Below, in pieces: positions 1-57,700 of a stretch of 64,000 bases of DNA. The translations under genes and the position numbers were made by a program. Where the stretch lies: positions 868,001 to 932,000 of the forward strand of contig NC_003283.11 of NCBI RefSeq assembly GCF_000002985.6. The letters run 5' to 3'. Every line of letters starts with the position of its first letter. Position 1 is the first letter of the stretch. The stretch comes from Caenorhabditis elegans (Eukaryota > Nematoda > Chromadorea > Rhabditida > Rhabditidae). The notes below the pieces were generated by a model. The model worked only from the letters and a program-made list of their open reading frames with translations, was not told the origin of the DNA and searched no databases.

Positions 1-200
1 ACTTTGTTTTATACTAGCCCGTTGTTATTACCAAAACAACTTTTCAAAACCCAAAACCAAAAACAAAAGATTTAGCAAGTTTATTTGGATTTTTGGATTG
101 GAAGTGTTTGCTGTTGGATCAAAGGTTTCAACTAAAAATTTTTATTTTTCTATTTTTGTCTTTTTTAGAATTTAATATTAAAACATTTGTCAAAATCTAG

Positions 201-3240: not shown

Positions 3241-6007
3241 GAACAATTTAGAATAGGCTTATTGCTAGAAAATCACAGAAAACGACAAAGTGGCATGTTC
3301 CCAGCAGCAAACCTGGTGATTTTAAAAGGTAGTCCCATACGGATTACGGTAGTGGACTTTTGAACAAAACTCGAGGGATTTACACTATGAGGCACAAAAA
3401 GTGAGGTCATCAAAAGGGATTATCGCATAAAAATTGTAGTTTTTTTGGGATACGATATTTTAAAATCTCAACAAATCCGCTTGAAACTGTGTTTTCTGGT
3501 TATGAAATGATGGAGAAATCATGTAAAGGTTGAAGGGATTGGAATAAATGTGAACTTTGAAGGGGAAGTTCGAAAAAACAGATTTTCGAGAGAGGGGTTT
3601 ATAAGTGCCCGGGATGAGGAAGTCGGGGGTAATGTTGGCTTGGAATATAGGGAGATTTTTGCCAATTTTTTTTGGGCATGTGCGGCAATCGGCAAAAATA
3701 CTCAATTTCAGGAAAGTCCGACTGAAACTACCAAAACCTTTGAGAACTGATATACGCTATTTGTAGATTTTTTTAAAGCAAATTTCTGATGTCAGTCCAC
3801 TTTTAGGCTTTTATATTGAAAACGAGCCACAGAAAAAAATAGCGACAGGGGAGCATTTTGAACAAGAAAAAATGCTATCTAAAAATTTTCCAGGGGATTT
3901 TTCGAATACATTGGGGACCGTTAAATGCTCAAAAATTGAATGAATTTTCCCAATTTTTAATGATTTTAAGAATTTTCAAAACAAAACTGAATTTTTTGAC
4001 AATGTCAAAAAGGTGAAAACAGTTCCAAATTTTTTCGAAAATATTGTCAATAATACTGTATTGAATTAGGGATTATTTTTTATGACAGGCTTGAATTTTC
4101 TCTAGGGATCTATTTGAATTTACCTCTTTCAAATGCCATAAAGCTTTTAATTTTGAGTCTAGAAGTGCAATGAAAAACGCAAAATATATCAAAATTAATT
4201 AACTCTATCGGCTTATTTCATGAAACTTGACTAGATCAACCTTCAGTAAAAAATTTCAAGACTGCTTATTTGACAAAGACATAAACGTAAACGAAAATGC
4301 CACTAAAACTAGAAACTTTTTGAATAGTATAGGGCTGAAATCGTATCGATTCTGTAATATATATGTTTTTGGGTTTGTCGAAAAATACCCAAAGAAGGAA
4401 TAACATTGGGATAATATCTGAAATTGATTTTTTTTTGAATATGATTTTCGTCAGTTGTTTTTTAACAACCCACAAATGATAGCTAGCTAATAATCAGAAG
4501 TATGAACAATTTCAAATGATGAAGCTTGGTGAATTCAAAAAAACAGTGAATATTCATAACTTTTCGGGTTAATTTTTTCCTTTTTTCTATTAATCCGTTA
4601 AAAAGTACACATACAATTAAGATAAAGTCACAGTAGAGCACATTTGATTACTGGAGTGGCACTGATAGTTTTTCCATTGATTTTTGTGGATTTTCAATCA
4701 TGTACACACACTCCCAAATGTATTGTTAGAAGAAATTGAAAATGTCAAAAGTGTTGATTATTTTTGTGGGGCTAAAAACTGCAACAAAAAAAAACAAACC
4801 ATCCTAAATTGTTTTACACGCGAAAAAAAAAAGATAACTTTAAAAATGGTTGTCCTTCTCTTCCCCCGTGTGCTCATTTTATACCGTATTCCATGACACC
4901 GGATTATTCAACAAAGATCACATTCAAAAAGTTTAAATCTTGGATATCCGCCTACACGTGGGTTGTTACCGATGTGTCGATTTTTAGAATGATCTATACC
5001 GATTTTCGGCGCTTTTGGTTAATCCCTACAGTAGGTGAGAGTATCATACTCACTAGAAAAGAATTTTTGAAAATTGGCGGGTTTTTTTGCGAAGTTTTTT
5101 GGTCAAAGTTCTGTCCAAATTCATTTTATTTGAATGACCAAATTTTCCGACCTAGATTTGTATAAAAATAACTTTTTAATAAAAATAACTGTACCGAAAA
5201 CCGGGGAAAAATTGTCTCATTGTGGTAGAAAACTAGGCTTGTTCGATATTTTTAAACATGTTTCGTACTAGTTGTCCTACTTTGTTTGGTATTTTCTGGT
5301 ATGTATGAAAATCCGGTACTAGTCCTAAATCACCCCGCCACTTTTTTTCTTTAAATTTAAATAAATTTTCAAATAAAAACGTGTGGAGTTTTTGTATTTT
5401 TAGGCTTATGTTAGGAAATAACCATTTCTAAGCCTAAAGATGGAAAATGGACATCACGTTTTATTAAAATGGATAATATTAAACTGATAAAAAAAAAGTG
5501 GCGGTGTGATTTAGGACTAGTACCGAAAATCCGAAACAGTTTTATAAAAGAAAAAAGAAGGGCTTCATATGATTTTCCCGTACTTTTGGAGTTTTGAAAA
5601 TACAGCTTTTGGTCGTATATTGCAATTTTGAAAACATGTTCCGTACTAGGTAGCATACTTTGTTTGGTATTTTCTGGTATATATGACAATTCTGAACAGT
5701 TTTATGAAACCACCACGACAATTTGTGCAATACGAAAAGATGTGCGCCTTAGAAGAGTACTGTAATTTCCATCGGTTTTTTGTAGTTTTCCGATTTCTTG
5801 AAAGAGCGCACACCTTTTGCAATTCCCAGAAACTTGTCGTATCGAGACCGGGTAACTTATTTTCAGATGTCTGGTTAATTAATCGAATATAGTTTTGATA
5901 ACACGCCTTGTTTATAACCAACCCCCTTATTCCAATTTCCTTTGCGCCTACGATATCTTTCGCTGACGAAAAACAGCCACTTCTTCAGTTGGTTACACTG
6001 GCGAAAC
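3241..6007. other. Intergenic region with no supported gene
   Basis: AT-rich sequence. The open frames here are short, lack splice partners and resemble no family I know. The only structured part is the inverted/direct repeat at 5235-5690, listed separately. Confidence 0.6.
5235..5690. repeat. Inverted repeat nested between direct repeats (MITE-like)
   Basis: Inverted arms lie at 5314-5349 (GGTACTAGTCCTAAATCACC) and 5489-5524 (GGTGTGATTTAGGACTAGTACC). Inside them GTATTTTTAGGCTTA near 5395 pairs loosely with TAAGCCTAAAGATGG near 5429. Outside them a direct repeat, TACTTTGTTTGGTATTTTCT, starts at 5278 and again at 5657, each copy preceded by AACATGTTYCGTACTAG. Confidence 0.75.
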
Positions 6008-10587: not shown

Positions 10588-11792
10588 AATAGTAGGGAAA
10601 TATGGCGTTTTGTGAAAAAATTTATGGAGAGTGAAAAGAAGCAGACAACCGGGTTTATGATGCCAAAATTTAATTGATAACTGATAAGAAAGGTAAGAAA
10701 ATTGAATTAAAGAAGACAAAATTATTATGGTGATTGTTGAAATAATATTAAACACAATTACATTTTAACTAGGTCTTTCAGTAGGCTTGTAAAAGCCTGC
10801 CTGTCTGCCTGACCTTAACCATGCCTCGCGCCTTAATCCTCGCCTTATGGTAAAACATAAGAGAACATTAAAGGTGGAGTAGCGTCAGTGGGGAAACTGC
10901 TTTAAAACATGCCTATGGTACCACAATGACCAAATATCATAGTAAAAAATTTTTTAAAAATTTTCTAAATTTTATATGATTTTTTGAAAATTGAAAAAAT
11001 CTCGAATTGCATCAAATTCCTATTTGAATTACCGCCAATAGTTCGATGTTCGATGGAGCGCGCTTGCATTATTTTAACTTTTATTTATCAATTTTTCTTA
11101 TTTTTCATTGATTTTTCATGTTTTTTTGAGTAATTTTACAGGAAATTCAATGAAAAATTTAAGATAAATGTAAATTTTTTATTAAAAAGCGGGTGGCTAA
11201 AGCCTAAATCTTTGAAATGGATTATTTCTGGCTAAACGTCGTTGGAAAACGTTATTTCTTTGTTTTCAATCATTTTTAATAAAAAAATTACTTGAATTTA
11301 ACTTTAAATGAATTTTTAAATGAATTTTGTAAAACTTATGTTGCATTTTTCAATGAATTTCCATTAAAAATACACTAAAATCGTGAGAAATAGCGAAAAA
11401 ATAAGATCCGCCCCCTCCCCCGAACGAATCATCTTGGCAGGAATTCGACAGAAACTGGATTTTTTTCCAATTTTCAAACTCCCACAGAAATTTTTATTTT
11501 AAATCTTATTTTCAATAGTATTTGGTCCCTGTGGACTCCACCTTTCAAAGATCTGCAAAAAATCGAAACATCATGTGCTTTTGCTCGCATACAAATAATC
11601 GGTACTGCTACGTAATTATATGTGTGAAACGAAAATGTTTCAGCAGTATTTCCAATATTAGTTCTCATATACATAGACGGAGTTTAATCTTTTGGTAAAA
11701 AACTTTCCCATTACTACTTCTTGGACCCAATCAGGAGAGTATTTTATTTCCCACCAACACCTACTTTTACTTAAGCGTCGCTGTGGTTACGC
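10588..11792. repeat. Intergenic region carrying a half copy of the AAAGGTGGAGTAGCG MITE
   Basis: At 10,870-11,070 AAGGTGGAGTAGCGTCAGTG is followed by AAAACATGCCTATGGTACCA and ATGACCAAATATCATAG, then TTTGAATTACCGCCAATAG. This is one arm of the palindrome seen complete at 55,835-56,335. I see no second arm, so it is truncated. The rest is AT-rich with no gene. Confidence 0.65.
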
Positions 11793-21274: not shown

Positions 21275-21713
21275 TTTCCGAAGAGGATTTTAATTTATTC
21301 AACAATTTTGAAGTGGACACGATGTAATGATGATAGGGGAAATGGAATAGAAGTCAACACATTTATAACCTGTATTTTTGTGTACTATTTGTACTTGTTT
21401 TGATGAATACTGACCTGATCTTTGTCGTTGAAAAGTGTACAAAGTACAGTTTCATGTCTTTTAAAAGTGACAACAAAGGGGGTATAATTGGCATCAGTGA
21501 AACAGTCGGTCATTGTCCGGATTTTTTAGAAGCAGAAATTTTTGCTGTAGACCATAACTAACCAATGTTGTCAGCAGCAAATTGATCCACCCGAAATATT
21601 TTTTTAAAAAACGTTTTCCTTACAATTTCATAAGTCTAGCTTTAAGTTTTGAAGAAATTTGAATGTTCAATAATTTATTTACATGAAAATATACAAAATG
21701 AGAATGCATATAA
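21275..21713. other. Intergenic region upstream of the transporter
   Basis: On the minus strand 21512-21413 reads ATGACCGACTGTTTC... for 33 codons and ends at CAG|GTCAGT, a good donor. No phase-0 acceptor with a pyrimidine tract links it to the transporter exon at 21274, so it is left out of the gene model. Confidence 0.4.
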
Positions 21714-22523
21714 TTAAACGTTAATTGGAACTTGTGGAGTTGAAACGGGGAGCTCTGGAACACCAATACCTCCAAGGTTATTGAGAAGTTGAGTAATGAT
21801 GAAGAGAATTGTGTTGAATTGCTGAAAAATAAATGAATAGGAGAGACATTAAAGAATATCTTACAATTTCATTGTTTTCCTTCAATTGATTGATTGCTTG
21901 TTCTTTTTCTTCATTAGTTTGATTACTTTCGACAATATTTTTCAGTTGTTGGAGAACATCAGCAAGACTTCTGATGATTTCAGAAGCTTGTTCAAATAGT
22001 GACCTAAGCAATTCAGAGACACCAGCTACAAGTTGATTGAGAGCATCCTGAAAAACATATAGAATAGGAGAAGATTAATAGAGTATTGACTTACACCAAG
22101 AGATGGATTAACAGCATTGAGTTGAGAAACAACTTGTTCAATTGGTGTATTAGCAGTTACGGAAGACAGAATTTCTTGAACTTTTTGAAGATCTTGATCG
22201 GAAATCTGGCTAACGAAATTATTCAAAAGTGTAGTTATTTGAGAGTTATTTCCAAGAAGTGGTAATTGCAAATCATTTGAAGGTAGATCAAGAATCGTCA
22301 GTAATCCATTGACTGCATTTTGATCTCCACCAAGAAGTCCTCCGAGTATTCCATCATCTCCAAGGATGCCTCCAACACCTCCTACTTCAGGAACTCCACC
22401 AATTCCTGGGTTTCCTAGATTTCCTCCCAGAAGTCCTCCTAATCCACCTTCTCCTAGAATCGGAATAGCAGTAGAAAGAGCAATGGAAGCAACGAAGACA
22501 AGAGCAATTTTTGACGAGCACAT
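21714..22523 (-). CDS. Secreted Gly-rich/helical protein, quartet member 1 (239 aa)
   Basis: Three exons, all phase 0: 22523-22095, 22047-21865 and 21821-21714. A signal peptide (MCSSKIALVFVASIALSTA) is followed by a short Gly-rich stretch (GEGGLGGLLGGNLGNPGIGG) up to about residue 60. A mostly helical region follows (NAVNGLLTILDLPSNDLQLP, then NNFVSQISDQDLQKVQEIL, then ELLRSLFEQASEIIRSLADV and EEKEQAINQLKENNEI). The end is Leu-rich, then PELPVSTPQVPINV. No cysteine lies in the mature part. The helical region faintly recalls SXP/RAL-2 (DUF148) proteins, but I would not assign it without a profile search. It is transcribed away from copy 2 and shares a 611-bp promoter with it. A TATA box (TATAAAAG, minus strand) lies about 35-45 bp upstream of the ATG. 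Confidence 0.85.
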
Positions 22524-23134
22524 TCTGAAAAGTTGATGTATTTCCACAGTTTCTGTTTGCCTTTTATATTGCTGCAATGCTCCGATCTCTGAGAAATAAA
22601 CTGGAACTGACTAAAACAAAAAGTTGACATGTTTTTTTTTAGATTATTCAATACTCGACAGTATATTCAAATGAAATGGTCATCGAACAGCAGACAATCA
22701 CATCATATTTATTTCGAGACTTATATATCTGAAAGTAGTTTCAGATCTTTACGTGTTGTCTGATAAAAAACATCAATTTTTGACTGAACAATGCTTTGCA
22801 TAATTCAAATTTCAAAAATCATAATAATATTTTCACAATATTTCTACAGGAATATCATTTACTATATATAAAGCGCTTATTCTGTGTGTCCATAGTTTGT
22901 AGTCTATGTATATAGTCGGGGTACTGTAGTGGTACAATAGTGGTACGGTAGGAATACTGTAGGGTTACGGTAGTTTCATAAAAATTAATTTTCAGCCCCA
23001 GAAGTCGGGGGCCGCGCCGAAGGTGCGGTCCACGGCTGGTTAGTATATAAGTAGCAGTGAGCGTAGAGTAAAATCATCAGTTTCAGTTTTTTATTCTTTG
23101 CTTAAATATTTCATTGAACAATAAGAATTTCAGA
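22524..23134. promoter_or_regulatory. Shared divergent promoter of quartet members 1 and 2, with a repeat insertion
   Basis: It matches the reverse complement of 25,538-25,967 outside one block. About 165-185 bp (roughly 22,860-23,042) are extra here. They contain GGTACTGTAGTGGTACAATAG, ACTGTAGGGTTACGGTAG and the GC-rich hairpin GGCCGCGCCGAAGGTGCGGTCC ending in CGGCTGGTTA, a dispersed repeat also seen at about 6,770-7,130. The insertion ends just upstream of the TATA-like GTATATAAGTAG of copy 2. A TGATAA (GATA-type) site is near 22,760. Confidence 0.7.
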
Positions 23135-23931
23135 ATGTGCTCGTCAAAAGTTGCTCTTGTATTCGTTGCATCCATTGCACTGTGTACTGCTATTCCGATT
23201 TTAGGAGAAGGTGGATTAGGAGGACTTTTGGGAGGAAATCTAGGAAATCCAGGAGTTGGTGGAGTTCCTAAAGTAGGAGGTATCCTTGGAGATGATGGAA
23301 TACTCGGAGGACTTCTTGGTGAAGATCAAAATGCAGTCAATGGATTATTGACGATTCTTGATCTACCTTCGAAAGATTTGCAATTACCACTACTTGGAAA
23401 TAACTCTCAAATAACTACACTTTTGAATAATTTCGTTAGTCAGATTTCCGAACAAGATCTTGGAAAAGTTCAGGAAATTCTATCTTCAATAACTGCTAAT
23501 ACACCAATTGAACAAGTTGTTTCTCAACTTAATGCCGTAAATCCATCTCTTGGAGTAAGTCAATACTCTATTAATCTTCTTATATTCTGTGACTTTAGGA
23601 TGCTCTCAATCAACTTGTAGCAGGTGTCTCTGAATTGCTTAGGTCACTATTTGAACAAGCTTCTGAAATCATCAGAAGTCTGGTAGATTTTCTCCAACAA
23701 CTGAGAAATATTGTCGAAAGTAATCAAACTACTGAAGAAAAGGAAGAAGCTATCAATCAATTAAAGGAAACCAATGAAATTGTAAGATATACTTTAATTC
23801 TTCTCTATTCATTCAATTTTCAGCAATTCAATACAATTCTCTTCATCATCACTCAACTTCTCAATAATCTTGGAGGTGTTGGTGTTCCAGAACTTCCCGT
23901 CTCAACTCCACAAGTTCCAATTAACGTTTAA
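23135..23931 (+). CDS. Secreted Gly-rich/helical protein, quartet member 2 (236 aa)
   Basis: Exons 23135-23554, 23599-23781 and 23824-23931, phase 0 throughout. The architecture is that of member 1: signal peptide, Gly-rich start, helical middle, Pro/Val tail ending PINV. It is three residues shorter in the Gly-rich part (VPKVGGILGDD where the others have VPEVGGVGGILGDD) and carries SKDLQ where the others have SNDLQ. Introns are 44 and 42 bp. AATAAA follows the stop at about 23,967. Its closest partner by position and upstream sequence is member 3 (CGGTGAGCGTAGAG/CAGTGAGCGTAGAG just before each gene). The function is unknown; it should be secreted. Confidence 0.85.
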
Positions 23932-24691
23932 TTAATTCCATTCTCATGTTGTATTTTCCTATGTAAATAAACTATCGAACATTCAATATCTCAACTTTCT
24001 TCCATTTAAAGCTTCCTATTTTCTAGAAGAATATAACTTATAGTATACAAAAAGGTTTTGGAAATTAAAAAAAACACATAATTCAAACTTAAAACAGCCT
24101 ATCATCAACTATTGAGGTTTCCAATAAAAGAGAAGTTTAATATTGATTAGTCGAGTGTTGATTAAAATCAGCAAGATAACAAGCAACGAACAAATTATTA
24201 AATGATTTCTGACTGCAAACATTGAATATATGGTTCAATTTCGGTGATATTTTTAAGACTCCCTGTTTGTGGCGAAAACTGTAAGAGGTCAATTCATTAC
24301 TTTGGTCTCTTGTCTAGTCTTTGAGGTCCCCTCGCTATGTGCCTCTTGGCATTGCCATGTGGCAAAGTGAGTGGGAGCAACAAGACGGACAACACATTGT
24401 GTGAGAGTGGAAAATAAGATCTTTATTCTTCTGTTTGTGGTCGAAGACTTGGAGATCTTGGAGAACAGACTGGTAGTAATACCAGCTCAATAAACTGTAT
24501 TATGAGATTATAATCTTTTTCTACAATAAGGCACTGGTCTACGATTGTTAATAGTATTTCAGATAATGCTATTGAAAATTAGAAGCGGACTATATTGAAC
24601 TGCAGTAATTGAGTTTTCGTTCTACCACTACACTTCCAACAAACTTTAGCTTAAACTAGTTTTGAAGTTAAAAATTTGAATGTTCGATAAT
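23932..24691. other. Spacer at the centre of the inverted duplication
   Basis: Roughly 24,250-24,560 is less AT-rich than its surroundings and non-repetitive (ACTCCCTGTTTGTGGCGAAA, AGTGGAAAATAAGATCTTTA, CCAGCTCAATAAACTGTATT). It has no long open frame. It could be remnant LTR-type sequence or an RNA; neither is supported well enough to annotate. Confidence 0.4.
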
Positions 24692-25537
24692 TTATTTACA
24701 TGGAAATATACAAAATGAGAATGCAATTAATCGAACATTAATTGGAACTTGTGGAGTTGAAACGGGGAGCTCTGGAACACCAATACCTCCAAGGTTATTG
24801 AGAAGTTGAGTAATGATGAAGAGAATTGTGTTGAATTGCTGAAAAATAAATGAATAGGAGAGACATTAAAGAATATCTTACAATTTCATTGTTTTCCTTC
24901 AATTGATTGATAGCTTCTTCTTTTTCTTCAGTAGTTTGATTACTTTCGACAATAGTTCTCAGTTGTTGGAGAACATCCACAAGACTTCTGATGATTTCAG
25001 AAGCTTGTTCAAATAGTGATCTAAGCAATTCAGAGACACCAGCTACAAGTTGATTGAGAGCATCCTAAAATCACAGAATATAAGAAGATTAATAGAGTAT
25101 TGACTTACTCCGAGAGATGGATTTACGGCATTAAGTTGAGAAACAACTTGTTCAATTGGTGTATTAGCAGTTATTGAAGATAGAATTTCTTGAACTTTTT
25201 CAAGATCTTGATCGGAAATCTGGCTAACGAAATTATTCAAAAGTGTAGTTATTTCAGAGTTATTTCCAAGGAGTGGTAATTGCAAATCGTTTGAAGGTAG
25301 ATCAAGAATTGTCAATAATCCATTGACTGCATTTTGATTTCCACCAAGAAGTCCTCCGAGTATTCCATCATCTCCAAGGATGCCTCCAACACCTCCTACT
25401 TCAGGAACTCCACCAATTCCTGGGTTTCCTAGATTTCCTCCCAGAAGTCCTCCTAATCCACCTTCTCCTAGAATCGGAATAGCTGTAGACAGTGCAATGG
25501 AAGCAACGAAGACAAGAGCAACTTTTGACGAGCACAT
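24692..25537 (-). CDS. Secreted Gly-rich/helical protein, quartet member 3, with a C-terminal extension (252 aa)
   Basis: Exons 25537-25109, 25064-24882 and 24838-24692, phase 0. Residues 1-239 follow members 1, 2 and 4. Where those end in PINV plus TAA, this copy has CGA at 24,733-24,731. The frame runs on for 13 residues (RLIAFSFCIFPCK) through what is 3' UTR in the paralogues, to TAA at 24,694-24,692. The extension adds two cysteines and a hydrophobic patch to a family whose mature region otherwise lacks Cys. Intron 1 is 44 bp with a TTTTAG acceptor. It shares its promoter with member 4. TATAAAAG (minus strand) lies at about 25,620-25,628. Confidence 0.83.
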
Positions 25538-25967
25538 TTTGAAATAATTATTGTTCAGTTAAAAATTTAACTGGGAATATGAAAGTGAAACTGATGACTT
25601 TACTCTACGCTCACCGCTACTTTTATACAATTTTTCCTGTAGACAAAGGGCGAAAATATTTTTATGATTTTTGAAATTCGAATTAGGCAAATCATTGTTA
25701 AATCAAAAATTGACATTTTTATCAAATAACTTTCAATGATCTGAAACTACTATCTGTCTGGAATAACATATGATGGCATTGTCTGCTGTTCGATGACCAT
25801 TTCATTTGAATATACTGTCGAGTATTGAATAATAGTTTAAAAAAACAAACATGTGCTCAACAATCAACTTTTGTTTCTGGACAGTTCCAGTTTATATTTC
25901 AGAGATCGGAGCAATGCAACAGTATAAAAGTTGAACAGACTGTGGAAACTCACATCAACTTTACAAA
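25538..25967. promoter_or_regulatory. Shared divergent promoter of quartet members 3 and 4 (no insertion)
   Basis: Reverse-complement counterpart of 22,524-23,134 but about 180 bp shorter. Conserved blocks include GCTGTTCGATGACCATTTCA and TTTGAATATACTGTCGAGTA on the member-4 side and CTCTACGCTCACCGCTACTT on the member-3 side. TATA boxes sit on both sides: TATACAA-type toward member 3 and GTATAAAAGTTGAACAG at about 25,922 toward member 4, about 40 bp from its ATG. Both 5' UTRs must be very short. Confidence 0.7.
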
Positions 25968-26775
25968 ATGTGTTCGTCAAAAATTGCTCTTGTCTTCTTT
26001 GTTTCCATTGCTCTTTCTACTGCTATTCCGATTTTAGGAGAAGGTGGACTTGGAGGACTAATCGGAGGAAATCTAGGAAATCCAGGAATTGGTGGAGTTC
26101 CTGAAGTAGGAGTTGTTGGAGGCATCCTTGGAGATGATGGAATACTCGGAGGACTTCTTGGTGGAAATCAAAATGCAGTCAATGGATTATTGACAATTCT
26201 TGATCTACCTTCAAACGATTTGCAATTACCACTCCTTGGAAATAACTCTCAAATCACTGAACTGTTGAATAATTTCGTTAGCCAGATTTCCGAACAAGAT
26301 CTTCAAAAAGTTCAAGAAATTCTATCTTCAATAACTGCTAATACACCAATTGAACAAGTTGTTTCTCAACTTAATGCCGTTAATCCATCTCTTGGAGTAA
26401 GTCAATATTCTATTAATCTTTTAATATTCTTTATGATTTGAGGATGCTCTCAATCAACTTGTAGCTGGTGTCTCTGAATTGCTTAGATCAGTATTTGAGC
26501 AAGCTTCTGAAATAATTAGAAGTCTTGTAGATGTTCTCCAACAACTGAGAAATATTGTCGAAAGTAATCAAACTACTGAAGAAAAAGAACAAGCTATCAA
26601 TCAATTGAAGCAAACCAATGAAATTGTAAGATATACTTTAATTCTTCTCTATTAATTTATTTTTCAGCAATTCAATACGATTCTCTTTATCATCACTCAA
26701 CTTCTCAATAACCTTGGAGGTGTTGGTGTTCCAGAACTTCCCGTCTCAACTCCACAAGTTCCAATTAACGTCTAA
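25968..26775 (+). CDS. Secreted Gly-rich/helical protein, quartet member 4 (239 aa)
   Basis: Exons 25968-26396, 26443-26625 and 26668-26775, phase 0. It has the same signal peptide/Gly-rich/helical plan; differences include FFVSIALSTA in the signal peptide, GGLIGGN and PEVGVVGG. Intron 1 has an atypical acceptor, TTTGAG|GATG, where its paralogues have TTTCAG, TTTAG or TTTTAG; no better AG is close by. It pairs with member 1 in upstream sequence. The function is unknown. Confidence 0.84.
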
Positions 26776-26929
26776 TTAATTGCATTCTCATTTTGTATAT
26801 TTTCATGTAAATAAATTATCGAACATTCAACATTACCCAATTTTGTTGCATAGCAAAATAATTTTAAATGTAAAATGATCAAAGTTCAACTTGGTCAAAA
26901 GAACAGTAACGAACACAAAATATTTTATT
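26776..26929. other. Short intergenic gap after quartet member 4
   Basis: Contains an AATAAA at about 26,812 for member 4 and the 3' end of the astacin gene on the other strand. Nothing else seen. Confidence 0.5.
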
Positions 26930-29900
26930 TCAAACCGGATTAGTACAGAAACCGCAAGTTTCAGCGCATGAGAATTCGGCGGCAAGTGGCGGTTGTTGGG
27001 TGCACATTCCGTTCGTGGAGTAGGTAGAGCATCTGGAAGGTGAAATTTCGAAGATTTTAAAATCTAGGACACTTGTGACGTCACTCCTCTTCCATGACCT
27101 CCCCAAAACTCACTGGCTCTTGGGAAACCTGTCCTTACATGTCCCATCATCTGACGCCACCTTCCCACACAAATCCATAGTCGCCGCACACATCACCTTC
27201 AGCTGAGCAGTGTCATAAATTGAGCAACCCTGCTCTTTTGCACTTTTCAAAGAAAGACACGTGGCTTTGTCGGATGTATCAGCACATGCGGTGACGTTAG
27301 AGTCCACTGAAATTTATGGAATTAGCAATAGAGTGACACTGCGGCCTGCCTTGTGCCTACCCCTACGGTTTTTCGGAGAAAATAGGCAGGCAGGCCTAAT
27401 TTAGCGCTTACCGTATCGATATGACCATGTGTACGTGGTTTTGTAGTACCGATTAAAGCTGAAGACGGGCATCGGATTGACACCGAAGTCGGCAGTCATG
27501 ATCTCAGCGTTGAACTCGTCGCAACAGTACCTGAAGGTTTCGAGGTTATCTTTCGTGCAAAAATATGGCTACCATGATCTACCATGATCCATGATCTACC
27601 ATGATCCAGAATCTACCTCGATCTACAAGGATCTACCATGAGCCAGGATCCACCATGATCAACCATGTTATATCATGATCTACCATAAACTGCCATGATC
27701 TACCATGATCTACCATGATGCACCATGTTCTACCATGTTCTACCATGATCTACCATGATCTACCATGATCCTAACTTACCTCGCCTGCGTAATTGTCATG
27801 TCACTTTTCAACTTCGGTTCAACTCCATTAAATGTGCACCCGTAGACACATTGGGTGTTGTACGTGGAATCGATTCGAAATTGAATTTGCTTACCGACAG
27901 GCGCCTGGAAACCTTTTTTTTTCAATCAAGATAACTTTTCCGGCTAAAAACCTGAATCCAATGATTACAGTAAACTGCGCTTGGTCTCGCTGTGGCGGAA
28001 TTTGACGCATTCCCAAATGTATACGTCTCCTGCTGCCACGTGTCAGTTGCAGTCAAAGTGCTTCCACATCCGTAATCTGTTCTTTCAGTGCACAAGGCTC
28101 CACCAAAACCGTACGGGCAAATGCAAACGGAACAGTTTGCAGGGTTCGTGAAGCCGCCATTTCCACAGCTGAGAATTGTTGGGCCTGAAGGGTTAGAGTT
28201 GGTTTTGGTAGTTTTCGGTAGATCAACTCACAAGAGCAAGAGTAATGCGTGTTGAGCATTTTCAAGTCCAGAAAAGTCACAATTCGTCCGCCCATGGTGT
28301 ATACCATCACCGGATCTTTGGGCACTATGGAATCAACTCCGCCGGATGAGACAAACCTGGAAAGGCCTTTCAGTGGGGTACTGTAGGTAGGGTTACTGTA
28401 GTGGTATTGTAGAGTTATACTGTAGGGTACACTGTGAGGATACTGAATGGTTACTGTAGGGTTACTGTAGGGTAACCGTGGGGTTACTGTGGGGTTTAAC
28501 AGTAGGGGGTTATGCTGAGGAGGATACTGTAGGGTTACTGTTGTTACAGTGAGATCGCTGTGTGATTGTGATTAGTGTAGGGTTATACTGTAGGGTTACT
28601 GTACGGCTAGGTTGCAGGGATACTGTAGGCCTACTGTAGGGTAACACTGTAGGGTTACAGTGCAAGGATACTGCAGGGTTTTACTGTAGGGTTACTGTAG
28701 GGTCATACTGTAAAGTTACTGTAGGGTTACTGTAGGGGCTCCACTGTCGGGTTACTGTAGGGTTGTTCTGAAGGGTTATTCTAAATGGTTACTGTAGGGT
28801 TGTTTGTACCGTTACACTATAGGGTTGCTGTAGGGTTACACTGTAAAGTTCCACTGTAGCGTCGTACTGTAGGGTTACTGTAGGGATACTGTATGGATAC
28901 TGTACCAGTACACTGTATGGTTATATTGTAGGGTTACACTTTATGGTTACATTGTAGGTTTTCTGTAGGGTCATTGTCGGGTTGCTGTAGAGTTGTTCTG
29001 AAGGGTTACTGTAGGGTTGCTGTAGGGTTACACTGTGAAGGGTTACACTGTGTTGTAGGGTTACAATGTATAGTTACATTGTAGGGTTACTGTAGGGTCA
29101 CTATCGGGTTACAGTCGGGTGACTGTAGGACTACACTACAGAATTAGACTGTAGGGTTGCACTGTAGGGTTACTGTAGGGTTACTGTAGGGGTGCTGTCG
29201 AGTTACACTGTATGTGCTTCATGAACAAAACATACGCTCTTCCCGAATAATGCATGAAGCTTCCATATTCATAATCAACGAGGTTTGTCGATGTCGCTTC
29301 AGTCAATTTAATAAAGTTTTGTTGAGAAGACTCCGGAACATCGGTAAGATCAATGGTGACATAATCATCACGATCGGATCTCATCTGGGTGTGAAATAGC
29401 CCCAAAGTGTGGGCTATCTCGTGAGCCGCCGTGCCGGTCTGGAAACTTTGGGTGAAACGAAAAAAAAATTTTTTTAAATAAGAAATTTATCTTACCACTT
29501 CACACCCGTAGCCCAGTGATAAGGTTTGCTCCCCTCCGAGCATTCCGGTGTCTGAGTAGCATCCAACACCGCTGAAAATCTGAAAATTTTCAAGTTTTTT
29601 GTTTGAAAAATGTCGGCTGAAGTAGTTTAGAGGACCTTTACTCGATTTGTGGCCGTGCTATTCAATTCGAATTTCAAGCATGTATTCGATTCCAAGAACG
29701 TTATCGCATCACGCACAATTTGCTGAACTGTCGTCGTAAGACCCGAATCGAAATAATAGTACACAACTTTTCCGGGCCAGAATTGAGCCAAGTTATCGAT
29801 TTGACGCTTTTTTCGTCGGGATTTTGAGGACTGTTCAGAGGAAATTTTCGCGATTTGGTTGCTGTAAAAGTTATCATTCAAGCAGCGGGTACTGTGTGGT

Positions 29901-36967: not shown

Positions 36968-39900
36968 ATGGCGGATCCGGTCGATATTAAGACGGAAACT
37001 CCGGAGTTAACTCCAGAAGTCAAAGAAGAAAAGGCAATCGATTTGGATCGGATTCATATTAAGAATATCCCAACATTTATCGGATTCAAGCAGTTCAAGA
37101 AAGTATTGGAAAAGTGGGATTTTTTTTCGATTTTTTAATTAAAAAATTGATTTTTTAATTAAAAAAATTGATTTTTTTTCCTTTTTCCAGAATCCTCGGC
37201 GACGTAAAATCGAAAAAAGTGCGCCATATGTCAGATTACGCCTATGTGACGTTCGAAACCCCAGAGGACGCCCAAAAAGCTATAAATCTAGTCGATGGCT
37301 ATGACTACAAGAAATTCATACTGTCAGCGCAGCTAGCAGCCACAGAAGTCAAATCTTTCCGTCCGGCTAACCCGGAAAATACCGAGCCAGCTCAGCAGAA
37401 AACCGCCCGTGAAAGTGTAACTCCGCTCGCCGAGATGGAATACGGGAAGCAGTTGGAGTTGAAGCAGCAGAATAGTGTGGGCGTCGTTGAAAAGTTGTAC
37501 CGGCAGCTAATTCAGAATAAAGTTGCACATTTGGGCAAACAGACTCAATTCCGAGATCGTGTTCTTCGGGAAATTCTCCCCGCACCGAAAACCGCCGGTT
37601 ATCGAAATAAATGTGAATTTACAATTGGTCACGATTTGAATGGAGAAATTTGCGTGGGATTCGTCGGCGGAAGATTCTCGAAAAATCAGCATTTTGTGAT
37701 ACCGCCCGTCGACGTGGATATTGTCAGCACACAGATGATGGCGATCGTTGGGGATGTGCATGAATTTGTGAAAGAATCGGCGTTGGAGCCATTTAATGAG
37801 TTTGATAGGAAAGGATTCTGGCGGATGCTGACGATTCGGGAATTTGGAGGAGATGTTATGCTGATTTTTACGGTTTTTCCGCTGGAGGATGGCGTGGAGA
37901 GGATGGAAGAGATTCAGAAGAAGATTGAGACGAGATTTTTGGATTTTGAGTGCGATTTTCTCATTTTTTAGGAAAATTTCCAATTTTTCAGAAGAAAAAT
38001 GACCAAAATTGAAAATTTTATGTTTGAAACAAAAAAAAATCGATTTTTTCGTCAAACGCACAAAATTTCTCATTTCATTGATATAAAAATGTGGAAAAAA
38101 GTGCGTTCTAACTGAAAATAACATTTATTTCTGTTAAAAAACTTATAAATGCCTCAAATAGTCTATTTTTGGTCTTTTCAAGCTTTTCAACAAAAATAAA
38201 TGCTATTTTCAGTTAGAATGGACCATTTTCTATGTTTTTATATGAATTTTTGAAGAACTTTTAAGTTTCTGAAAATTCCCGGAAAAAATATTTGAAAATC
38301 TTCTTACAAACTTTTTTTTTGCAACTTTTTCACGGAAAATATGCAAATTTACCATAAAATTCAATTTTTATCAACCAAAAGTTTGAAATATGTTTCAAAA
38401 AATCGAAATTTTTTGTTTTTTCCAACAAAAATTTGTAATTTTTGCAGAAAAAAAAACAGAAAATTTAACAAAAAATTGCTTTGGAAAAAACCGAAAATTT
38501 CAGAAAAAAAACCGTCTATTACAGGATCACAAAATTCTGAAAATGCGTACTGGGCAACATATTTGACGCGCAAAATATCTCGAAGCGAAAACTACATTAA
38601 TCTTTTTAAGGACTACTGTAGCGCTTGTGTCGATTTACGGGCTCGATTTTCGAAAATATTTTCTTGTGAGTTTTGACGAATATTTAAAAAAAAAGTGAAA
38701 ATCGCTAAGAAAACGGTTTCGAAAATCGAGCCCGTAAATCGACACAAGCACTACAGTAGTCATTTAAAAGATTACTGTAGTTTTCGCTACGAGATATTTT
38801 GCGCGTCAAATATGTTGCAAAATACGCATTCTCAGAATTTTTGTGTTTCCGTGTTCAAATGGATCAGGTTTGTAACGACATTTTCAAATAATTTTTCGGG
38901 AATTTTCTGAAATTTATAAATTCTCTCAAAACTCATATAAAAATGTAGAAAAAGGTTCGTTTCAACTGAAAATATTATTAATTTTCGTTGAAAAGCTTGA
39001 AAAATGCCTCAAATAGCCTATTTGTGGTTTTTTTAAAGCTTTCACACAAAAATTAATGTTATTTTCAGTTGGAACGAACCTTCTTCTGCCTTTTTATATG
39101 AGTTTGAAGATAATTTTTGAATTTCAGAAAATTCTCGAAAAATTATTGGAAAATCTGCTTACAAACCTGGTTCGATTTAACACAAAACCAAAAAATTATG
39201 AAAGTGCGTACTGGGCAACATATTTGACGCGCAAAATATCTCGTAGCGAAAACTACAGTAATCCGTTAAATGACTACTGTAGCGTTTGTGTCGATTTACG
39301 GGCTCGATTTCCGAATTGTTTTTTTTTTTCGAAAGTCAAGCCCGTTAATCGACACAAGCGCTACAGTAGTCGTTTAACGGATTACTGTATTCTTCGCTAC
39401 GAGACCCTATTTTGCGCGTCAAATGTGTTGTGCAATACGCATTCTCAGAATTTTTGTGCTCCCGTAATACAATCAAAAACCCCATACCTTAAAATTTTTC
39501 AGAACATTCAAGGAGAAAAAGTACCGAGTGTGTAGTATCTATTGGCAACAAATGGTTCATATCAGTGATACACCGAACTTCAAGCTGATCGGTGGAACTC
39601 CGTACATTTATGAATCTCTGTTGGACTGCCGATTCCGAGTATCACCGCCAGCGTTTTTCCAGACGAATAGCCAGGCGGCGGCGGTTCTCTACTCGACGAT
39701 TGGAGAGCATTGTGGGCTCAGTGAAAAGGTTCTTGAAGAATCTGCGATTTTATTATTGAAAAGCGCATTAAAAATGCCGAGAAAACGCGCTCCACGGCCA
39801 ATTGAATACGCCCCGCCCCCAAGCCAAGGGTCTCGTTAGGTTTTCAGTGATTTTCGCTGTTTATTTGGTGTTTTAAATGAATTTTGTGTCAAAAATAATG

Positions 39901-42820
39901 AAATCAATTTTTTAACAGGATTTTACATGATTTCCACCTAGAAATTATTATTTTTAATGATTTTCTGCAGAAAATAATAATTTTTACTAAAAATCAATAT
40001 TTTTCTATGATTTTTACCCAAAAAATCAGGTTTTTTTCTATTAATTTTGCCTAAAAATCATTATTTTAAATTTTTTCCCCAGAAAAGCTTTTCTTTCCAT
40101 AAAACCAGAATTATTCTATGATTTTCACCCATAGAATCAGTATTTTTAACTAAAATCAGAATTTAAACATTTAGGATTCCCCGATGATTTCTACCCGAAA
40201 AATCAATATTTTTCAATAATTTTTACCCGAAAAATCAGGTTTTTTAATGTTTTTCCCAGAAAATCATAATTTTTACCTGAAAACTAGGATTTTTGATGAT
40301 TTTCACTCAAAAATCAGCATCTTCATTAATTTCATCAATTTCAGCAAAAAAATCATTAAAAACCACTGAAAAAATGACAAAAAATGCTTGAAAATTGGCG
40401 AAAATTTCCGGTTTTCCCGCCAAAAAAATCAAAATATTGATTTTTAGTAAAAATTATTATTTTCTGCAGAAAATCATCAAAAATAATAATTTTAGGTGGA
40501 AATCATGTAAAATCCTGTTGAAAAATTGATTTCATTATTTTTGACACAAAAATAATTTAAAACATTAAATAAATAACGAAAATCACTGAAAACCTAACGA
40601 GACCCATGGCTTGGGGGCGGAGCTTTTTCAATTCGCTGTGGAGCGCGTTCACACGCCGAATTTTGAAAAATGCTCAAAAATTTCAATTGTTTCTTAATTT
40701 TTGACTGAAAATCTGCAAAATCGATGAAATAAAAAGTGAAAATAGTTTTTTTTCTCCAGAAAACCAACGAAGATGTTCCAGTGGAAACTGATGCATCGGA
40801 AAAAGCCCCAGAAGCTCCAGCAGCACCTTCAGAGCCCATCCCCGACGATCCATCCGATGCTCCTCCGGCAAAGATCCCGAGAATCGAGCCGGAGCCCACT
40901 GCAGCAGATGAAGCACCTGCTCCAGAAGATCCCGGAACCATCCTTCTTGACATTTGCTGTGGAACCGGAACGATCGGTCAATGCCTTCTGAAAAATATTC
41001 AAAAATCGCAAAAAGTGTGCTGCATCGGAATTGAAATGATCGCCGAAGCGGTGGAGGACGCCAAACAAAATGCGAAACAGAATAAAATGGAAACATGCTG
41101 TAAATATATTGCTGGAAAAGCCGAGGACACATTCCGATCGATGAGATATCATCTGCCGAATGGTTTTGATCTACGAAAATCGAGAGTGGTCGGAGTGCTC
41201 GATCCACCGAGAGCCGGAATGCACGAGAAGGTTATTCTCGCGTGTAGAGAGGTTCGAATATTTGGATTTTAGAAATTCCAAAAATTACCTTTAAAACTTG
41301 TAGATTTACGCGTAAATTTTTTTAAAAATAGGAATCGAGGGTGTTCGTTTTTCGATTTTTTAAAAAATTATTTTATCGTTGTTTCGATTTATCAAAAATT
41401 AGCTTAACATTTTGGCTATTATTCTTCTTTTTAGAAGAAATTGTTATGTTTTTTCTTACCAATATAATCAATTTTTTTAAATCATAGTTTATGGTTAATT
41501 TTCTGAACATTTTTTTCGATTTTTCAATTTTCACTGAAAAACATCAACAAATCTTTAAAAAATGCCGCTTTTGATAGGAATATATTATTCAGACGCGAAA
41601 TTTCGGGGTTTTCGCGACTTCCCGGTCTCGACACGACAAATTTTTGCGTGCGCCTTTAAAGGTGGTGTACCGAAATCTGAAAAAAAATTTCAAATGACTC
41701 CAAATTTTCACCTGATTCCGAATAATTATGTTAAAAAATCCGAAAAAAATTTCCCAGATGTTATATTACCGCTTGAAATCGAGAATTTTCGCGCCAGAGA
41801 CGCCATATGTCGATTTACGAGATTTGTGTATATTTACGAAATGTTTATTTTATATCGGATGCTGTTTTTCGTTTTTCAATGAGTTTTCTTCGTTTTCGGC
41901 GGTTTTTTGTTTGGAAATGTATGTTTTAAGGTCAATTGAACATTCTTTTTAATCAAAAAATTAGAACATTTTCCATAAAAAATTTTTGCTCGTTTTTTTG
42001 ATACGAAAATGTTTAATTGACCTGAAGAAACACATTTTCGAAAAAAAAACCGCCGAAAATTAAGGAAATTCATTGAAAAAAAAGGAAATCAGCATCGGAT
42101 AAAGATTAAACATTTCGTAAATATACACAAATCTCGTAAATCGACACGTGACGTCTCTGGCGCAAAAATTCTCGATTTCAAGCTGAAATATAAAATCTGG
42201 GAAATTTTTTTTTTTAATTTTTTAATCATAAATATTCGTAATCAGTGGAAAATTTGAAATCTGAAAATATTTTGATAATATTTTCCAGATTTCAGTACCA
42301 AGGGTGTCAGTTTATCGAATAAGAAAAAGTTGAAAAACGAAAATTTTTCGATTTTCAAAAATTAGCTTAAAAATTTGTTTAAAAGTTTTTTCGATTTTCC
42401 CACGTGGGGTGTCAGAGTGTCCCACATCGGTGTGATCTACAAGAAATGCGGGAATTCCGACGCGCTGACTTCTCAACACATTTCTTATGGTTAAGAGCGA
42501 GATGACGTCACATTTTTCTGAGAAAAAATTCCCGCATTTTTTGTAGATCACACCGATATGGGACACTCTGGCACCACGTGCTTTTCGGTTTTTCGAAAGA
42601 AAAAACCGGCAGTCCTGGCCTGTAACACCTGAAAACGGTTTTTTTTGCTCCAGATGGAAACAATGCGTCGTCTGATCTTTGTCTCGTGTGAACCAAACGC
42701 CGCCATCTCCAACATCGTGAATCTGTGCCGTCCGTCGTAAGTGTATTGCACACACCTAGCACAGTCTTATCTCACTACAATCTAAATGTGATAAGACTGT
42801 GTGTTTTTCTCTCCGTCTCC

Positions 42821-54700: not shown

Positions 54701-57700
54701 CGCACCGTGGTGACGACTGAAATTATAGCAACAGTTAATGTTTCAGGCAAAACTCCGGTACCAAAATAATCTCGACATATCTGGAGTGCCGAAAGATTTT
54801 GCTGGACCTAAAGTTTATTGACTGCTCAAGAACTGATATAAATAGAGAGTTTGCTAAAACACTCTTGAGCTCTCATCCTTCAATTGTTCACGTGTCCGCA
54901 ATAGGTTGTGCTATTTTCAGACAGTAAAAATATGTCGTTTTGCAGGTTGCGATTTGAAAAACTTCTCTAAATGTGGTACTCGCATTTTCTATTGCACGTC
55001 AATCGAATCATTGTTCAGAAGCTTAATTGACTTCACAAATTTGAAAAATGAGCTAGCAACTTGTAGATGTTTAGAAGAACTGCACCGACAACTAAATGCT
55101 TCTCGTAGCACCGAAAACTTGCATTACTCGAGTTTATTGAAACTGGTTATTCAAACTATGAACATGTTCACGTCGAGATCAACCTTAATTAATGGTCTTC
55201 AGTGCTTGATTTGGATAATAAAGTAAGTGGCAAAAATTGAAACACGGCACAGCACTCTACATAGAATTGAAGTTTATTTGGAACTCTTGAATTAGTTGTT
55301 AATAAATCGTGCTTTTGAAAATTGCCATTAACGTGTAGAGAAATGTTTTTCCTACATGTTCGATTTTGAGGATTTGATGAATTGCTGAAAAAAATTATGG
55401 GGAAACAAGTCAAAAATTTAATAAAATGGAAATAACAAAACATACCAACGTTGACCTTCCACTTGTGATTTGATTGCCTAAAGGTGGAGTAAAGTCGAAA
55501 TGTTTTTTTCTTTAAGTGATTGAAAATTTTTGCAGACAAATGTTTCAAAAAGTGGCAAACAGTGATTCAAAGAAAATATACCTTAAGGAAAAGCCTCTTA
55601 GTCAATAAAAACCGAACAATTCATTCAGACAACGCGAAAATATCAATAAATGACGTCACACATTTGCGCGCGAATCCAAATTTAATTCAGTAATTTCATA
55701 TTTTTATTTTAGAAAAATTGAAAAAATCATAAGAAATTTAGAACAAATTTTTAAATCTTTTTACAGTTATCTTCGGTCGATGCTGTCCATTTTCTATCAC
55801 TTAAAGAACAAATTATTCCGACTTTACTCCACCTTTAAAGGTGGACTACACCCTATGGGGAAATTGCTTTAAAACATGCCTATGGTACCAGAATGACCGA
55901 ATATCTTGATAAAAAAATTTAAAAAAAATTTCTAGATTTTATATGGTTTTTTGAAAATTGGAAATCTCAGTTTTCACCTAATTCCTATTTGAATTTCCGC
56001 CAATTGGATTTGTTCGATGTGGCGCACATTTTGGATTTGTCTTATTTATTTATTTCATTTTCCAATTGAAAAAATATAAAAAATAAAGAAAATCAGTCTA
56101 ATAACGAGAATAAATAAAATTAATAAAGTGAAATAATGCAAGTGCGCTCCATCGAAAAAATCCAATTGGCGGAAATCCAAATAGGAATTAGGTGAAAACT
56201 GAGATTTTTTCAATTTTCAAAAAATCATATAAAATCTAGAAAAATTTTTTGAATTTTTTTATCATGATATTCGGTCATTGTGACCCCATAGGCGTGTTTT
56301 AAAGCAATTTCCCCACAGGGTGTAGTCCACCTTTAAACTGTGGTAGCACGAGAGTACTCGATTTTCTCCGAAATGAGAAGCACGTGGTGCCATGCTGTCC
56401 CTTGAGAACAAAATCCTGTTTTAGGGAGCAGTCCGTAGCATAACATCACAATACACATTTTACATTATTTTTCAGCCACAAAATGGATCAAATTGGTCCA
56501 GTTAATATGTTTTTCACACTTAAAAAACTCCTGAGCTTAGCTGATTTGTTGCCGGAAACGTATTCAAATGCGGAAATAATACGGTCAAATCGATTATATT
56601 GGGATGCAATTGTTAAACTTACAAATTCGGAAAACACCAATTTTGATGAAATCTGCTGGACAGCAATGAACATGATGTCGAAAGTAACCTATGCAGCTGG
56701 GTCAGGTGCAGTATTCGTTCTATGCAAATTTTTTTCACACATGAGCAGAAAAGAATTTCTGCGCATGGCAAAGGTTTCGAGAAATGTTTCCATTTCTTTC
56801 AGGCATTTTTCTGATCTCGCTTCTTTGCAGCTTTGAACTAAGGTTTGTGCGCGGATTTTACTTTGTTTAGAATACATCGTAAGAAATCAACAAAAGTTTG
56901 GAAAAAAATCCGTCCAAAAAAATTTTTTTTGGTCGGTCGTCAAAAAAACTTCAAAAATTTTTTTTTTCGAAAGTTTTTGATTTTTAGTATGAAAATGATG
57001 TAACCATGTGTACACTATTTTTAAACATACAAAACATTTGAGTTTGAAATTTGGATCTCGAGAAATACTCAAAAAACTCAAAAATTCTTCGAAAAAATTA
57101 TGTTTTCTATTATCATTTGAGTGTGACGAACTTAGTTAAAATGTTTTGTATTTGTAAAAATAGTTCACACATGACTACATCATTTTTGTATGAAAAATCA
57201 AGAGTTTTCGAAAAAAAAATTTTTGAAAAAAAAAACATTTTTTGACCACCGACCAAAAAAAAAATTATTGGACGGATTTTTTTCCAAACTTTTTCTGTTT
57301 CCTTACAATGTATTCTAAACAAAGCAAAGTCCGCTCATAAACCTCAATTCAAAGCTGCAAAGAAGCGAGATCAGGAAAATGCTTGAAAAAATTGGCTTCG
57401 AGTTAGGGCACTCCGCGTGGTCAAAAATTTTTGTGACCATATCAAAATGAAAGATCATAGTTGATAACATAAATTCCCACAGTTTCAAAAAAATCGATAA
57501 AAGGCGAAAGAAGTTATGATTTTTGACCCGGAACTTATTTGGAGACCTAATATGTAAGATTAATTGTTTTGTAGGGAAAAATAACTCTTTGTGCATCCCG
57601 TGTGTGTAGAATCAGATTTCTGAAACTCTTCTCAACTTGCTAGAAACTGCAATTGAAATTGAAATTTTGTAAGGAATTTCCTAAACTGTAAAATTCAGGA

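Follow-up and report, generated by a model that had tools for sequence, protein, structure and literature searches.

Several paralogous gene pairs of Caenorhabditis elegans are arranged as inverted repeats, including the hsp-16 genes and the hsp70 pair F44E5.4/F44E5.5, and divergent pairs have been duplicated as units (PMC1803023); conversion between inverted paralogues has been reviewed as well (PMC3966223). In the hsp-16.1/hsp-16.48 locus, four genes form two divergent pairs, the second of which is inverted, with a spacer of about 415 bp, and the arms are reported to be 100% identical mirror images whose likeness is attributed to conversion (Russnak and Candido 1985, as described in PMC1803023 and PMC3966223). 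F44E5.4 and F44E5.5, together with relatives in C. briggsae and C. remanei, are divergent paralogues placed around an inverted-repeat control region (PMC1803023). With these precedents, an arrangement of this general kind is not new in C. elegans. Here, we describe a quartet of genes of the SXP/RAL-2 family (PF02520, formerly DUF148), located at 21659-26830 in a 64,000-nt stretch of C. elegans chromosome V (NC_003283.11, positions 868,001 to 932,000; referred to as the window), which resembles the hsp-16 locus in having two divergent pairs, an inverted second pair and a short spacer, and in the part that conversion may have had in keeping its copies alike. In contrast to the hsp-16 arms, its members are only 87.5-91.2% alike pairwise (four-way gene alignment) and form a mosaic: the promoters and the start of exon 1 group member 1 with 4 and member 2 with 3 (14|23), in mirror order, while from the last part of exon 2 through intron 2 and exon 3 the partners are 1 and 3, and 2 and 4 (13|24), in direct order. 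All comparisons are based on one assembly, and the locus is composed of the following features, given in window positions.

21714-22523, minus strand: member 1 (alpha type); exons 22523-22095, 22047-21865 and 21821-21714; 239 amino acids
22524-23134, no strand: divergent control region of pair 1; 75.7% identity with the reverse complement of 25538-25967
22675-22696, plus strand: 22-bp element of pair 1; 151 bp from the member 1 ATG and 438 bp from the member 2 ATG
22851-23042, no strand: interspersed repeat, missing from pair 2; probable element 22855-23039
23135-23931, plus strand: member 2 (beta type); exons 23135-23554, 23599-23781 and 23824-23931; 236 amino acids
23998-24664, no strand: spacer separating the two pairs; 667 nt, the gap between the arms in the self-comparison
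24692-25537, minus strand: member 3 (beta type); exons 25537-25109, 25064-24882 and 24838-24692; 252 amino acids
25538-25967, no strand: divergent control region of pair 2, in the opposite orientation to that of pair 1
25780-25801, minus strand: 22-bp element of pair 2; 242 bp from the member 3 ATG and 166 bp from the member 4 ATG
25968-26775, plus strand: member 4 (alpha type); exons 25968-26396, 26443-26625 and 26668-26775; 239 amino acids

The inverted similarity of the two control regions is confirmed as real and well above chance. When one intergenic region is inverted, 311 of 411 aligned positions agree (75.7%), as compared with 194/405 (47.9%) in direct orientation and a chance level, obtained from 30 shuffles, of 46.1% on average and 49.9% at most. 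In the self-comparison, 22632-22852 is an inverted match to 25634-25844 (three pieces, 79-86%) and 23043-23096 to 25575-25628 (89%), the similarity extending past the coding sequence into intergenic DNA. An earlier note on this DNA, made from its letters alone, had read the second pair as the inverted copy of the first, with the upstream sequence of member 1 corresponding to that of 4 and that of 2 to that of 3, and had suggested such a self-comparison; the correspondence holds, in inverted register, for promoters and gene starts. Since these promoters match, the outcome that the note had named as fatal to its proposal, namely unrelated promoters between 1 and 4 or between 2 and 3, was not observed. 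The second control region is thus the reverse complement of the first, as in inverted divergent pairs of the hsp-16 kind.

This mirror order does not continue along the whole genes. The four genes were aligned with introns kept, from 60 nt 5′ of the ATG (position 1 being its first base) to beyond the 3′ untranslated region (UTR), and 46 sites split the members two and two: 22 as 14|23, 18 as 13|24 and six as 12|34. Up to position 624, 19 of 30 such sites are 14|23, five are 13|24 and six are 12|34; after it, 13 of 16 are 13|24, three are 14|23 and none is 12|34. Eleven consecutive 13|24 sites lie at 649-780, in the last part of exon 2, in intron 2 and in exon 3. A run of this length arose in 5 of 100,000 label permutations over the 46 sites and, when only the 24 sites between ATG and stop were permuted, in 153 of 100,000. 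A maximal-segment statistic was reached in 53 of 100,000 permutations over the 46 sites. By the approximately unbiased (AU) test, only 14|23 is accepted for block -59..60 (other trees p 0.0009 and 0.0004), only 13|24 is rejected for block 430-640 (p 0.0185), and only 13|24 is accepted for block 641-870 (other trees p 0.0018 and 0.0023, the former against the mirror order). Over the first 60 nt downstream of the shared transcript end, similarity is confined to members 1 and 3, whose score was reached by 1 of 500 shuffles, as compared with 94, 492, 494, 253 and 389 of 500 for the other five pairs. The earlier reading of the second pair as an inverted copy therefore does not extend to the 3′ parts, which pair 1 with 3 and 2 with 4, and the quartet is not the product of one simple inverted duplication.

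A second quartet allows the same comparison. DNA and protein searches found related genes on chromosome III (C3:13397807-13402990), in four copies, A(-), B(+), C(-) and D(+), whose exon matches to member 1 have 38-50% identity; synonymous divergence (dS) between the window quartet and genes B, C and D is 0.96-1.47. Their intergenic regions agree at 417/429 positions (97.2%) when inverted and at 314/424 (74.1%) when direct, the latter figure being high because both ends of each intergenic region are alike. The 95 bases preceding the ATG are 91-98% alike in each of the six pairs, and the first 330 coding bases 97-98%, whereas exon 2 is only 80-91% alike. A duplicated C. briggsae hsp70 pair likewise has similar 5′ and diverged 3′ parts; unlike the window genes, its copies are direct repeats, and no flipped promoter is described in the passages cited (PMC1803023). 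Copy A (locus L008, about 3760-4438, minus strand) is missing the last part of exon 1 together with the splice donor and is probably a pseudogene in this strain. An hsp70-like gene (L008 2239-6239) is split by the nested divergent pair A/B, with HSP70 profile positions 62-439 preceding the pair and positions 436-548 following it. By domain, LGG-rich region and gene number, the chromosome III quartet can be tentatively matched to the F11F1 genes, of which F11F1.4, F11F1.5 and F11F1.8 are DUF148 genes reported as desiccation-induced; these encode a signal peptide, an LGG- or YGG/FGG-rich region and then DUF148 (PMC3853187), and the window proteins follow the same order, with a putative signal peptide. 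The quartet so matched has the 22-bp element and mirrored promoters in common with the window quartet and differs from it in that one of its four copies is truncated, its gene-type order is opposite and one pair lies inside the hsp70-like gene.

Each divergent pair appears to be arranged around one shared putative control element. With the repeat removed, the control region of window pair 1 aligns with that of chromosome III pair 2 along 291 bases (60% identity, E 5e-10), and its best score against chromosome III pair 1 (41.1) exceeds those of all 100 shuffles (maximum 32.6); the same block lies upstream of a solo gene starting at C5:8104773. From the five sites in both quartets and the solo gene, a 22-bp pattern, AATGRTCNYYGRACASCAGACA, was built. 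At up to two mismatches it has five matches in the genome, which are its source sites, and none elsewhere, and a backwards control has no match at all; because the pattern is derived from these sites, their recovery is by construction and only the absence elsewhere is informative. At up to three mismatches, two matches are found in the window against 0.02 expected. The element lies 138-166 bp from the alpha-type genes (members 1, 4, B and C) and points at the beta-type genes, which are members 2 and 3, A, D and the solo gene; its distance from these is 242-284 bp, except for member 2 (438 bp). Gene types follow the order alpha-beta-beta-alpha on chromosome V and beta-alpha-alpha-beta on chromosome III; moving one quartet as a whole fails to yield the other, and at least one promoter change must therefore have been separate.

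On balance, we lean towards a history in which a divergent pair was duplicated head to tail, in direct orientation, which would have given 13|24 relationships throughout. Within one pair, the coding arms are inverted and nearly identical, and a crossover between them would then have turned round the central segment, composed of the promoter and the 5′ gene parts, so that 14|23 arose there and 13|24 was left at the gene ends; with this segment flipped, the promoters would be mirror images while the gene ends keep their direct order. Later gene conversion would have helped to keep the coding regions alike, and the products would be secreted SXP/RAL-2 proteins with a part in stress or surface protection. 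We infer this order of events, and a flip rather than conversion, because one inversion makes both end-swaps with one switch position, whereas conversion needs two events; the mirrored promoters on chromosome III are counted as support for the flip. A number of observations weigh against this history. The AU test leaves the middle of exon 1 (block 61-429) undecided and, for block 1-640, favours 14|23 and keeps the other trees (0.089, 0.106), so the switch point is loose. Taken jointly, all sites favour 14|23 and reject 13|24 (0.023), and with the 24 sites between ATG and stop alone, the maximal-segment statistic is weak, being reached in 5,002 of 100,000 permutations. Members 3 and 4 are identical at 52 of 53 bases of the 3′ UTR (810-862), which is at odds with 13|24, and the flanks of members 2 and 4 show no significant similarity (253 of 500 shuffles as good). 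Of the 23 informative sites in the chromosome III quartet, 11 are AB|CD, six AD|BC and six AC|BD, and it is thus without ends of the 13|24 type. Finally, in a human Y palindrome followed in 83 phased chromosomes, 56 conversions were counted as against 3 inversions (PMC3723533).

The last figure also favours a different order of events, an inverted duplication of the pair followed by two 3′ gene conversions (1 with 3 and 2 with 4), which we regard as possible but less probable than the flip. A mirror copy would agree with the promoters and the exon 1 starts, conversion between C. elegans paralogues is documented in either orientation (PMC3966223), and the ends of members 1 and 3 (166/169) are somewhat closer than those of 2 and 4 (159/168; Fisher p 0.086), as separate events might give; it requires, however, two independent events over the same stretch, and members 1 and 3 are similar even beyond the transcript end. 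It is improbable, in our judgement, that the mosaic is mostly noise, or selection at a few sites, in a simple inverted duplication: the small number of informative sites, the undecided middle of exon 1 and the one weak permutation statistic would fit, but two blocks each significantly favour opposed trees and members 1 and 3 have the very same intron 2, which is noncoding. We give least credence of all to an artefact of assembly or sequencing, which is conceivable for near-identical inverted copies of a repetitive region in a single assembly; yet the copies differ by 9-12% overall and by one repeat insertion, which makes assembly confusion unlikely.

The four three-exon genes, with strand order -,+,-,+, agree in coordinates, strands and exon sizes with the paralogues described in the earlier note, as do the division into divergent pairs 1(-)/2(+) and 3(-)/4(+) and the spacer, put there at about 0.7 kb; the exception is member 3, which lacks the shared stop codon. 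Exons measure 429/183/108 bp in members 1, 3 and 4 and 420/183/108 bp in member 2, and introns 42-47 nt; in intron 1, members 2 and 3 differ by one base. The shared stop ends members 1, 2 and 4. In member 3 (24692-24733), CGA replaces it, which adds 13 codons encoding a tail with two Cys, and the new stop overlaps the gene's own AATAAA. Within the quartet, dS is 0.11-0.21 and the ratio of nonsynonymous to synonymous divergence (dN/dS) is 0.14-0.21, and the low ratio indicates that the proteins are under constraint.

The repeat in pair 1 sits between the 22-bp element and the TATA-like box of member 2, just upstream of the box. Of 546 candidate matches to its 3′ part elsewhere, 40 were scored, of which 39 agree at 95-98% and one at 89%. 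The ends, A|TC at one side and a hairpin followed by CTGG|T at the other (2 of 200 shuffles fold as well), look Helitron-like by what we take to be the rule for such elements. Elsewhere in the window, units of about 10 bp, CTACCATGAT for example, form an array at 27559-27792, an exon of a neighbouring gene with an ShK domain (PF01549, 23.7 bits against a cut-off of 20.9) lies at 26930-27106 on the minus strand, and four further inverted repeats have arms of 158-178 nt that are 81-89% complementary (38839-39195; 39784-40649; 56790-57395; and 10868-11039 with 56165-56336).

All four genes belong to the SXP/RAL-2 family, the profile search suggested in the earlier note giving PF02520 scores of 52.5, 50.0, 51.0 and 52.7 bits for members 1-4 against a curated cut-off of 29.3 bits; this genome has 52 exon-level matches to the profile. 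The N-terminus of each member, read by eye, is hydrophobic, and the proteins, Gly-rich in their N-terminal part and helical in the C-terminal domain, are probably secreted. The note's description of the helical body as Cys-free is borne out, and Cys are found outside it: Cys2 in the region of the N-terminal hydrophobic stretch, Cys17 additionally in member 2, and those in the tail of member 3. Membership of the Gp-FAR-1 family was considered and rejected, the matches of members 1-3 being weak (E 0.0053, 0.0062 and 0.0024) and below the family cut-off. Sequence comparison with solved structures gave 15 chance-level matches (best E 0.24), one of them a lipase chaperone at E 9.2. PF02520 is also found in Ani s 5 and other SXP/RAL-2 proteins of parasitic nematodes, which are described as helical and secreted, Ani s 5 being calmodulin-like and Mg2+-binding, and SXP1 and SXP2 motifs have been named for the family (PMC3945735). 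Unlike Ani s 5, the window proteins have a long Gly-rich part, and the sequence comparison reached no solved structure, that of Ani s 5 among them, below E 0.24. A cuticle-protective role has been proposed, with one family member induced by fungal infection (PMC3296651), 9 of 32 DUF148 genes were induced by infection (PMC3534327), and a DUF148 gene or protein was changed by stress or exercise (PMC8570697, PMC9950660); the window's four genes are named in none of these passages. We infer that secretion and a stress- or surface-protective role outside cells are most likely.

In the cited passages on the hsp-16 and hsp70 loci, we have not seen the half-mirror, half-direct make-up or mirrored promoters in two quartets, although a literature search is no proof of absence. 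The locus allows duplication, inversion and conversion to be distinguished within one small quartet, with a second quartet for comparison, and a hitherto unnamed gene cluster is assigned to a nematode family to which antigens and allergens of parasites also belong. More tentatively, the divergent promoter may be an invertible cassette, which inverted coding arms allow to flip or to be copied in reverse, changing which promoter side drives which gene ends, separately on chromosomes V and III, and its orientation may vary among wild isolates. If this is true, flips or reverse copies of the cassette gave the opposite gene-type orders of the two quartets. The 22-bp element marks promoter orientation, and its readout in wild-isolate assemblies would measure how frequently such segments flip.

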